Shown here: piece after piece, positions 6,509 through 14,187 of the stretch
Layout of the letters: every line of letters starts with the position of its first letter
Position numbering within the stretch: position 1 is the stretch's first letter
NCBI GenBank assembly: GCA_949156565.1
Contig: CASCZI010000008.1
Coordinates: 1 to 37,251, forward strand
Direction: 5' to 3'
Length of the DNA: 37,251 nucleotides
Origin: an uncultured Alphaproteobacteria bacterium
GTDB taxonomy: Bacteria > Pseudomonadota > Alphaproteobacteria > Rs-D84
The notes under the pieces: model-generated
Databases searched by the model: none
Seen by the model: only the letters and a program-made list of their open reading frames with translations
Told to the model about the DNA's origin: nothing
Position numbers and translations under genes: made by a program

Positions 6509-7680
6509 TATTCCCCATCCTTTTTAAACAATAAACAACAATCGCCATATGAAAAGAAGCGGTATTTTTCATCCACGGCATGCCGGTATGCCGCACGCAT
6601 GTTGTCCACCCCCGAAAACGCCGACACCAACATAAACAACGTCGATTTCGGCAAGTGAAAATTGGTCAGCAATACATCCACCGCCCCAAAACGATACCCC
6701 GGCGTGATAAAGATATCCGTTGTCCCGCAAAACGGCACCACACGGGCACCTTCACCCAATGCACGGGCACGTATTGCCGCACTCTCCAGTGTTCGCATCG
6801 ATGTTGTTCCCACCGCAATAACGCGCGATGCGGCGTTGATAATGGTGGCATGTTCTGGTGTAATTTGGCACCATTCACTGTGCATTTTATGTTGGGATAA
6901 ATCTTCGGTTTTGACCGGCATCCATGTGCCCGCCCCAACGTGTAATGTCACGTTTACAATTTGCGCCCCACGCGCCCGAATTTGATCCAATAATTCGGGG
7001 GTAAAATGCAACCCAGCGGTCGGCGCCGCCATCGATCCCAACGGCCCGGCATACACCGTCTGATACCGGTCACGATCGGCATTATTGGCCCCCCGCTTCA
7101 TATACGGCGGTAACGGCATTTTCCCCACCCGGTCCAAAACGTCCATTAAATTATCACAATTAAATTGCAGTTTCAGCCCGCTGTCATCATCATGCGCCAA
7201 CACGGTCGCGGTCGTCCCATCGTCCAAGGTCAAGGTTTCGCCAACAGGGATTTTATTAAATTTTTTACACAACCCCCACCACGTGCCATCGGACACAGCG
7301 GTATGCAGGGTAACTTCATACACGCGGCCCGACGAATCGGTTGCATTAAACCGTGCGGGAATCACACGCGAATTATTAAAGACAACGACATCACCGGGAC
7401 GAACATAATCCAAAAAATCCCGAATATGACGGTCAGATAACAAAAGACCACCCCGGGCTGCGCCCCCCCCTCCACAGGAGGGGAACTTAGACTCAGCGTG
7501 GCACGGTGCAACTTCTCCTCCTGTGGGGGAGTACCCCGAAGGGGGGAGGTGGTCTTTTGTTAATTCTTGTTTGACATCCCCACCAACCACCAACATACGG
7601 GACGCATCGCGGCGTTCCAACGGGTGCGACGCGATTAATTCGGTTGGTAATTCAAAATCAAAATCGGACGTATGCAACAT
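6508..7680 (-). CDS. queA: S-adenosylmethionine:tRNA ribosyltransferase-isomerase with in-frame insertion
   Basis: QueA transfers the ribosyl part of SAM to preQ1 in tRNA, making epoxyqueuosine. The family start (FDFELPTELIASHPLERRDA), the middle (RPGDVVVFNNSRVIPARF) and later motifs (TAGLHFTPELL; PTSMRTLESA-like region; NFHLPKSTLFMLV) are all present. Length is 390 residues against about 345-350 usual. The excess is a block at residues about 40-81, rich in Pro, Gly, Ser and Cys, encoded exactly by a palindromic DNA element (7438-7562). Removing it joins GGDVKQEL to SDRHIRDF, which is normal QueA sequence. The frame is kept and no stop is introduced, so the gene is probably still functional. 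It starts one base after the preceding gene's stop. Confidence 0.96.
   Translation of the reverse strand: MLHTSDFDFELPTELIASHPLERRDASRMLVVGGDVKQELTKDHLPPSGYSPTGGEVAPCHAESKFPSCGGGGAARGGLLLSDRHIRDFLDYVRPGDVVVFNNSRVIPARFNATDSSGRVYEVTLHTAVSDGTWWGLCKKFNKIPVGETLTLDDGTTATVLAHDDDSGLKLQFNCDNLMDVLDRVGKMPLPPYMKRGANNADRDRYQTVYAGPLGSMAAPTAGLHFTPELLDQIRARGAQIVNVTLHVGAGTWMPVKTEDLSQHKMHSEWCQITPEHATIINAASRVIAVGTTSMRTLESAAIRARALGEGARVVPFCGTTDIFITPGYRFGAVDVLLTNFHLPKSTLFMLVSAFSGVDNMRAAYRHAVDEKYRFFSYGDCCLLFKKDGE
7438..7562 (-). repeat. Palindromic element inserted in frame within queA
   Basis: The ends are 15-base perfect inverted repeats (TAACAAAAGACCACC and its complement). Inside is a second pair of arms, CCACAGGAGG/CCTCCTGTGG, so the whole 125-base unit can fold into one long hairpin. 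It lies entirely within queA and is translated as about 42 residues. Two related copies lie at 13862-14048 and 14102-14187, sharing the order CTTCGGG - TACTCC - GGAGAA - GCACCG - AAGTTCCCC. Behaviour and size resemble the Rickettsia palindromic elements, but I cannot show sequence homology to those families. Confidence 0.85.
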
Positions 7681-12850: not shown

Positions 12851-12910
12851 CAAAAACAAGAAGAACGGGGTGTCTGAATCCACAGCCCCCATCGCAAGAG
12901 GAGAATGGAG

Positions 12911-13807
12911 ATGAGAAAAATCGTATCTTTAACGGTTCTGACCGCGTTGGTCGCCGCCTGTACCCAGCCACAGTCCGGATCAAACGTTTCTGATTATGGC
13001 AGTGATGGTTTCGGCGAAGAAGTTTTGGTCACAACCAATGATCAAATGTTAAATACCACCTATTTAACCGCACCGGCACCCAAATATTATGTTGGTAACG
13101 CGTACAAGGTCGAAGATGTTCAATACATCCCGGTCGAAGACCTAACCTATAACCAAACTGGAATTGCGGGAATTATCCCGGCCGAACTAAACGGAACCAA
13201 AACCAGCAATGGCGAAACATTTGATATGAATCAGATGGTCGCCACCAGCAAGACGTTGCCATTACCGACAATTGCACGGGTTACAAATCTGGACAATGGA
13301 AATTCTGTGACGGTGCGCGTTAATAACCGTGGCCCGTTTGTAAATACACGCATTATGGACCTGTCGCCGGCGGCGGCGCGTAAAATCGGCATGAATGGTA
13401 CCGCCAAGATCCAGGTCCAGGTTATTGCCGACCAATCTTTGGCCGTGAAAAATGCAACATTGGGTGCAACGGCGGATACAACACCCACCGAAACCATCGT
13501 CACCACAACCACCACAACGGTAACAGAACCAACCCCAATGCCCCAACCTGGGCCGGTGGCAACATCGGGCGATTACAGTGTGCAAATCGCGGCATTCTAT
13601 GCCGAAGACAGCGCATCCAACCTGGCCAATCGGATGAAACAATATGGGGATGCCACCGTCGTCAAAGAAGGCGATATGTACAAGGTGCGGATTGTCGACT
13701 TGGATGCGGCCGCCGCGCGGCGGACAATTGATGCCCTGCGTCAGAACGAAGGCATGGCACCAGGTCTGTTAAAGAATGGCCGTTGGGTTAACGCCGACAG
13801 CATTTAA
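12911..13807 (+). CDS. rlpA: RlpA-family septal lipoprotein with SPOR domain
   Basis: I chose ATG 12911 because AGGAG lies 7 bases upstream; ATG 12905 is too close to it. Signal peptide with lipobox LVAAC (Cys17). The double-psi beta-barrel domain (about residues 75-180) shows SNGETFDMNQ, KTLPLPTIARV, VRVNNRGPF and RIMDLSPAAARKIGM. A Thr/Pro-rich linker leads to a C-terminal SPOR domain (about 222-298, YSVQIAAFYAED) that binds denuded septal glycan. In RlpA lytic transglycosylases the Glu and Asp of GE..D and a His eight residues on are important. Glu102 and Asp105 are present, but the His position is Ser113. Activity may be altered. Confidence 0.9.
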   Translation: MRKIVSLTVLTALVAACTQPQSGSNVSDYGSDGFGEEVLVTTNDQMLNTTYLTAPAPKYYVGNAYKVEDVQYIPVEDLTYNQTGIAGIIPAELNGTKTSNGETFDMNQMVATSKTLPLPTIARVTNLDNGNSVTVRVNNRGPFVNTRIMDLSPAAARKIGMNGTAKIQVQVIADQSLAVKNATLGATADTTPTETIVTTTTTTVTEPTPMPQPGPVATSGDYSVQIAAFYAEDSASNLANRMKQYGDATVVKEGDMYKVRIVDLDAAAARRTIDALRQNEGMAPGLLKNGRWVNADSI

Positions 13808-13811
13808 AATC

Positions 13812-13834
13812 TCCCCCGAACGGGGGATTTTTTT
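13812..13834 (+). terminator. rlpA terminator
   Basis: Stem TCCCCC/GGGGGA with loop GAAC, followed by seven T, 4 bases after the rlpA stop. Confidence 0.88.
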
Positions 13835-13861
13835 ACAACTTTCAGATTGCAGAGTTCAAAT

Positions 13862-14048
13862 AAAAGCCCCCCCTTCGGGATACTCCCTCGAGGGAGGAGA
13901 ACCCATGCACCGATCTAAAGTTCCCCCGCCAGAACCCACCCACGGAAATTTAACAATTTCCGCGGTGCCCAGGGTCGGGGGTGGACGCGCAATCAGGCGC
14001 CGCAAAAATTGAAAATTTTTGTGGGTGATATCGACGGGGTGGTCTTTT
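13862..14048 (+). repeat. Palindromic repeat copy A (intergenic)
   Basis: It begins AAAAGCCCCCCCTTCGGGAT and ends GGGGTGGTC plus a T run, matching the ends of the element in queA. The shared core is CTTCGGG, TACTCC, GGAGGAGAA, GCACCG and TAAAGTTCCCC. It is longer than the queA copy because the middle holds two extra perfect hairpins (GGAAATT/AATTTCC and CAAAAATT/AATTTTTG). The left hairpin reads CTCCCTCGAGGGAG here and CTCCGCCACAGGCGG in copy B, so pairing is kept while sequence changes. No credible gene lies in 13808-14299; the short frames there are shadows of this repeat. Confidence 0.75.
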
Positions 14049-14101
14049 TTTTTAAATAATCCTGATGGATGTTCGGGGTGTCGGCAATAGCAGTGTTCAT
14101 G

Positions 14102-14187
14102 GTGCAGAGTACAGAATCCAGATAAAAGACCACCTCTCCGCTTTGGGATACTCCGCCACAGGCGGATAACATACGCCCCGATCATCG
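14102..14187 (+). repeat. Palindromic repeat copy B (partial)
   Basis: AAAAGACCACCTC, CTTTGGGATACTCC and CCACAGG match the queA copy base for base over short blocks, but the right-hand terminal arm is missing, so the copy is truncated or diverged. Copies A and B are both preceded by TGCAGAGT and a short A-rich spacer, suggesting duplication of a larger unit. It lies about 110 bases before the GNAT gene. Confidence 0.65.

Follow-up and report, generated by a model that had tools for sequence, protein, structure and literature searches.

The two palindromic copies A and B in the window (the whole analysed stretch of DNA, 37,251 nucleotides) are probably orphan, non-autonomous and partly degraded copies of mobile palindromes that resemble REP and RPE elements and are associated with DUF559 nuclease genes; we infer that DUF559 mobilizes them. 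They belong to a repeat family whose hairpins covary, that accompanies DUF559 genes and that is carried in-frame within protein genes. Copies A and B themselves are modest relics, and the interest lies in the family.

Copies A and B and the repeat family

The basic repeat is a half-unit, H, of approximately 40 nt that forms two hairpins in the order GTT-stemA-TG-stemB-GGGGTGGTC. An intact unit of approximately 118 nt is an inverted pair of H, arranged as H'-spacer(X)-H. Reading about 40 loci in the genome that harbors the window gave the unit layout AAAGACCACC-hairpin-hairpin-AACTT-spacer-AAGTT-hairpin-hairpin-GGTGGTCTTT, in which the spacers and the right half differ module-wise between copies. 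This genome (G000) is 1.07 Mb and 95.8% complete, and the window is one contig of it.

Copies A (13848-14048) and B (14104-14170) are intergenic. Copy A lies directly behind the terminator of an RlpA-like DPBB/SPOR gene (12905-13807, assigned by Pfam), and a GNAT acetyltransferase gene starts at approximately 14300, beyond copy B. Their parts, and the unit located in queA, are listed in Table 1.

Table 1. Parts of copies A and B and of the queA copy, by position in the window
Feature	Position	Strand	Basis or remark
Intrinsic terminator of the upstream DPBB/SPOR (RlpA-like) gene	13812..13834	+	terminator scan, Pfam
Copy A, left tag TGCAGAGTTCAAAT, common to most copies in the genome	13848..13861	+	
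Copy A, half-unit H', stem B of CCCTTCGGG type, stem A CTCCCTCGAGGGAG	13862..13902	-	R1 match 13867-13902, 27.9 bits
Copy A, spacer X	13903..13921	+	alignment with other units
Copy A, right half-unit, with longer hairpin modules breaking into or replacing stems A and B, end GGGGTGGTCTTTT	13922..14048	+	
Copy A, inner hairpin GGAAATTTAACAATTTCC, recurrent exchangeable module	13944..13961	+	found in many copies
Copy A, second inner module, hairpin CAAAAATTGAAAATTTTTG at 14003-14021; in sister species part of a different palindrome	13985..14035	+	
Copy A, right flank, like right flanks of other copies	14049..14103	+	
Copy B, left tag GCAGAGTACAGAATCCAGAT	14104..14123	+	
Copy B, half-unit H'	14124..14170	-	R1 match 14129-14170, 29.7 bits
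Intact unit H'-X-H, in-frame in queA, about 40 aa	7442..7558	-	absent from other QueA of the genus
queA with in-frame unit, 390 aa	6508..7680	-	uninterrupted QueA of the genus mostly 340-365 aa

Each copy has one recognisable H'. The right half of copy A is broken up and enlarged by other hairpin modules, AATTTAACAATTT and AAAAATTGAAAATTTTT, and copy B has kept only one half, the rest of the unit being missing or degraded. The two copies align with 72% identity over 46 nt. Compared with shuffled sequences, the fold of copy B is no better (z-score -0.2), that of copy A reaches -2.5 and that of the intact unit -7.1. In the sister species the AAAAATTGAAAATTTTT module sits within a different palindrome, of GTCATCCCG type. 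At one locus (L010, 484-700) such a GTCATCCCG-type palindrome with the AAAAATTGAAAATTTTT module adjoins a GIY-YIG-like reading frame. The window's own genome has three GIY-YIG matches, one of them (G000:C7:27838-28143) within a 308-aa open frame.

An earlier note on this DNA had assigned A and B to the family of the queA element. The assignment is backed by a half-unit covariance model (R1), whose training set includes H from the same genome, the queA halves among them, and neither A nor B. Scanning the window with R1 recovered A, B and both queA halves (7447-7486 and 7512-7553, 52-56 bits), and nothing else convincing. Several details described earlier are likewise borne out. The left hairpins, CTCCCTCGAGGGAG in copy A (13883-13896) and TCCGCCACAGGCGGA in copy B (14152-14166), keep their pairing while the bases differ, and this covariation holds family-wide (see below). 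TGCAGAG(T) and an A-rich spacer precede both copies, and the same tag stands ahead of most copies in the genome. The two extra hairpins of copy A are present and missing from the queA copy, and the variation of modules among copies supports the suggestion that the inner part is exchangeable.

A blast search with 13848-14187 as query matched the genome at 66 places, far more than chance would give, with a best non-self E of 5e-59; the queA copy as query matched at 52. R1 gave 68 half-unit matches in this genome and matches in 36 of the 59 genomes of the genus. The model-based search proposed in the earlier note did not, then, return these copies alone without structural conservation. H occurs as singles, as tandem or direct repeats and as inverted pairs, on both strands. 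Most copies in the genome appear intergenic, several lie behind terminators, and there is a T-run at the right end. No class of downstream gene is common to most copies.

Several copies are located no more than a few hundred bases from the end of a contig (C1, C3, C4, C5, C6, C7, C9 and C10). The repeats or adjoining paralogous genes probably broke the assembly there, and the copy number may therefore be underestimated. In the right flank of about a dozen copies (L016, L020, L022, L028, L033, L034, L043 and L049-L051) stand a sigma-70-like promoter (TTGTCA-N17-TATAAT) and a palindrome, ACTATGCCTAATCC... Several of these loci also encode exported, cysteine-rich proteins that are paralogous to one another and may form a variable surface-protein family.

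Covariation of the hairpins

Stem B was tested with anchors placed outside it, so that pairing was not a selection criterion, and with the 3' arms dealt anew in each shuffle. It is 96% paired, compared with 70% after shuffling (shuffle maximum 80%), with 23 distinct stems in one length class. An alignment of 29 half-units with a fixed structure (A4) is 92.9% paired versus 78.5% when shuffled, and has 42 double-change cells where 13.6 are expected; none of 500 shuffles reached 42. The excess recurs in a cross-phylum alignment of 126 distinct half-units (A5; 119 double-change cells versus 33 expected, 0/500) and among the half-units of the window's own genome (72 versus 28, 0/500), although these two alignments were fitted to the model and therefore lean towards its structure. 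The shuffles leave relatedness in; slid controls drop to 53-68% paired. The covariation test called for earlier thus gave an excess of double changes that no shuffle reached.

The commonest loop of stem B is cGAAg, and cGTAg and cGCAg also occur. Compensatory changes recur at the same positions in distant lineages, together with this recurring cGNAg loop. Unusual stability in single-stranded DNA is a property of cGNAg loops, which here gives no more than a lead.

Association with DUF559 genes and in-frame insertions

We chose 80 DUF559 loci by protein similarity only and then scanned them with R1. They come from Alphaproteobacteria, Bacteroidota, Cyanobacteria, Armatimonadota, Spirochaetota, Deltaproteobacteria, Clostridia and others. 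H was found within 250 bp in 78 of the 80 loci and on both sides in 66, of which 58 have it inverted. The density of H is 5.6/kb near DUF559 and 0.14/kb beyond 600 bp, a 41-fold difference. The flanking inverted-repeat score alone is a weak control because all loci share H, and we used the model-based count of H. In Pseudanabaena, full H'-X-H units are located on both sides of DUF559.

Within the genus, at least 8 copies of H are found in 14 of 21 DUF559-positive genomes versus 7 of 38 DUF559-negative ones (p 0.0005, a rough value since the genomes are related). Four DUF559-positive genomes gave no R1 match. The genome of the window departs most strongly from the trend in the genus, as it has 68 H and lacks DUF559; a search for remnants at E values up to 10 gave none, indicating that A and B are orphan copies and not autonomous elements. 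The simplest account is an orphan family left after gene loss, while a missed gene or another mover is possible.

Pfam assigns the nuclease domain to DUF559 (PF04480). In an AlphaFold model of a QueA-DUF559 fusion this domain has a pLDDT of about 95, and only this part of the model is reliable because the QueA alignment is shallow. The DUF559 model matches a DUF559 structure (3hrl, Z 11.7), the homing endonuclease I-Bth0305I (3r3p, Z 10.5) and Vsr (1cw0, Z 9.5), and D, E, D and H, the candidate catalytic residues, hardly vary. The modelled domain has the Vsr/EDxHD-type PD-(D/E)XK fold. The DUF559 protein VsrA of Caulobacter belongs to the PD-(D/E)XK superfamily and is genetically linked to DNA damage in vivo (PMC12907096).

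The queA reading frame of the window passes through the intact unit without a stop, and an in-frame scan showed this to be the only clear in-frame copy in the genome. QueA was found in 56 of the 59 genomes, in most relatives as an open frame of 340-365 aa without the insert. Several sister species carry an in-frame DUF559 domain in the QueA loop that holds the unit here, or in a second one around residue 305. A full unit lies directly ahead of DUF559 in a sister species. H repeats flank seven of the nine in-frame QueA-DUF559 insertions in sister species, with the series GTTCCCCTCC..GGAGGGGTGCC..GGCGGGGTGGT ahead of the domain and its inverse after it. The other two (G013 and G030; L082/L094 and L085/L093) have a different DUF559 subfamily and another end palindrome, CCCCGCCCTTGTGGCGGGG.

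Many DUF559 frames elsewhere also lie in-frame within larger genes, encoding HsdR, HsdS, a type ISP enzyme and QueH, and the HsdR insertion is at a similar place across several Bacteroidota and Calditrichia lineages. A lipoyl-synthase-like frame appears by eye to be a further case. A Pfam search of the frames with inserts gave host and nuclease domains only. The QueH insertion is at L214 (G067), and a similar 364-aa DUF559 frame is present in G080; two queuosine genes, queA and queH, are hit in one genus. By eye, the HsdR genes at L129 and L134 that carry DUF559 apparently also carry an in-frame GIY-YIG-like nuclease domain.

Other DUF559 lineages come with other palindromes. Six plasmid DUF559 loci examined with R1 had no significant H and mostly other repeats, and phages gave one weak DUF559 match. 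On a plasmid of Synechocystis sp. B12, a DUF1156 gene is split by a DUF559 gene (L205, 2358-3054) whose ends are of CTCACCCCTAGCCCCCTCTCC type. The DUF1156 gene is whole in Nostoc and Planktothrix, and the ends of the Synechocystis insertion are of a different type from H. For the H-flanked element, the loci examined yielded no exact DNA-level empty site, target-site duplication or exact gain event.

Origin of the repeats and comparison with known systems

We suggest that H is the end repeat of small mobile elements coding for the DUF559 (PD-(D/E)XK, Vsr-like) endonuclease, which would be arranged as H-ORF-H' or have a full H'-X-H unit at either end of the gene. Copies of H that lack the gene would spread as well, singly, in tandem or as inverted pairs, the H'-X-H units of the window's genome being an example of the last. 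In brief, DUF559, or another nuclease acting in trans, may recognise the hairpins in their paired form, whether the DNA is single-stranded or a cruciform, and cut near them, and break repair or copying would then place the repeat elsewhere. As the repeat is palindromic, either strand would fold. Insertions would persist between genes or, the repeat being readable without stops, in-frame where a protein loop tolerates them. The covariation would reflect a need for DNA hairpins in mobility. Mobilization by DUF559 would require that the enzyme has been lost from this unit-rich genome, was missed at 95.8% completeness or acts only rarely. The palindromy, the tie to DUF559 in many phyla, the in-frame copies and the single, direct and inverted arrays all fit mobile DNA hairpins of REP/RPE type.

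The main competing explanation, which we consider unlikely, is that the palindromes are passive. General recombination or template switching would spread H, quasi-palindrome correction alone would keep the arms paired, and DUF559 would home into the repeats or hitch-hike with them, the repeats being targets and not cargo. This would accommodate the many H without DUF559 in the window's genome, the different palindromes of different DUF559 lineages and the exchange of arms as modules within a single copy. It accounts less well for the bracketing of DUF559 by inverted H, seen across many phyla in 58 of the 66 loci with H on both sides, for compensatory changes that recur at the same positions in distant lineages with the same type of loop, and for H-DUF559-H' at sites, QueA among them, that are free of palindromes in relatives.

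A structured RNA or cis-regulatory element (a 3'-UTR structure, a terminator or a riboswitch-like element) selected as a transcript is improbable. The earlier note had proposed selection on structure. The hairpins do stay paired under change, but the implied role in transcripts is not the best reading of this. The strong fold of the intact unit, the real covariation and the apparently intergenic position of most copies, with terminators ahead of several and a T-run behind, would suit an RNA. On the other hand, the Rfam scan of the window gave tRNA only and no intron, and the units are palindromic, lie on either strand, in-frame inside coding genes and in tandem or inverted arrays, with no common class of downstream gene at most copies. 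Copies A and B are moreover degraded, B to the point of folding no better than shuffled sequence.

Least probable of all is movement by a RAYT (Y1 tyrosine) transposase as in REP/BIME elements: the look is similar, with short palindromes, unpaired tags, inverted pairs and mostly intergenic copies, but Y1_Tnp (PF01797) is absent from the window's genome while control genomes were positive, the unit tags are GTT and GGGGTGGTC and not GTAG or CGTC, and the gene linked in other genomes is DUF559. On these grounds membership in the RAYT-moved REPs (REPtrons) was rejected.

We therefore return to the DUF559-associated mobile palindromes. More tentatively, these may constitute a cross-phylum class of mobile element, in which two-hairpin palindromes bracket a Vsr-like DUF559 endonuclease. 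Such an element would insert into host genes in-frame, with no splicing involved, and give off its palindromes, which would then be non-autonomous repeats of RPE type. Published accounts leave open by what route RPE-like palindromes come to lie in-frame in genes and what mobilizes palindromes that have no RAYT (PMC2229807; PMC3733652). With DUF559, the class of bacterial palindromes without a known mover gains a candidate, and if the proposal is true the DUF559 element supplies the mover missing for palindromic repeats without a known transposase. It would also account for the puzzling presence, in restriction and tRNA-modification proteins, of in-frame nuclease domains and of repeat peptides (NSPPLEGCPQGGVV). 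Since the family accompanies, in many phyla, a nuclease with a homing-endonuclease fold, the question of the mover is directly testable. In the literature searched, with preprints and most subscription papers outside it, no element tying DUF559 to palindromes, inverted repeats, homing or in-frame insertion is described.

RPEs (Rickettsia palindromic elements) are palindromes of about 105-146 bp with terminal inverted repeats, located between genes and in-frame in genes for conserved proteins (PMC2229807). The unit described here resembles them in its length of approximately 118 nt, its terminal AAAGACCACC/GGTGGTCTTT, its long stem-loop fold (z -7.1) and its in-frame position in queA, a comparison of general architecture only. 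Both are found in small-genome Alphaproteobacteria, and the mover of RPE is unknown. Unlike RPE, the unit consists of two two-hairpin half-units, and H flanks DUF559 in many phyla, which is not reported for RPE in the cited literature. The GTAG/CGTC REPs are likewise small palindromes that bear unpaired tags, form inverted pairs, also occur inside genes and flank a gene of nuclease type, and the CGTC REPs are stated to have no dedicated transposase (PMC3733652). REPtrons (REP plus RAYT) differ in their tags and in having a Y1 transposase in place of DUF559 as the associated protein.

On the protein side, the DUF559 model matches the catalytic domain of I-Bth0305I, a Vsr-like EDxHD homing endonuclease, and in both cases the endonuclease gene is embedded in another gene. 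In contrast to I-Bth0305I, no intron or intein is evident, and host and nuclease form one continuous reading frame. VsrA of Caulobacter shares DUF559 and the PD-(D/E)XK superfamily; unlike the H-linked DUF559, it has been studied as a nuclease of mismatch-repair type and not as part of a mobile element.
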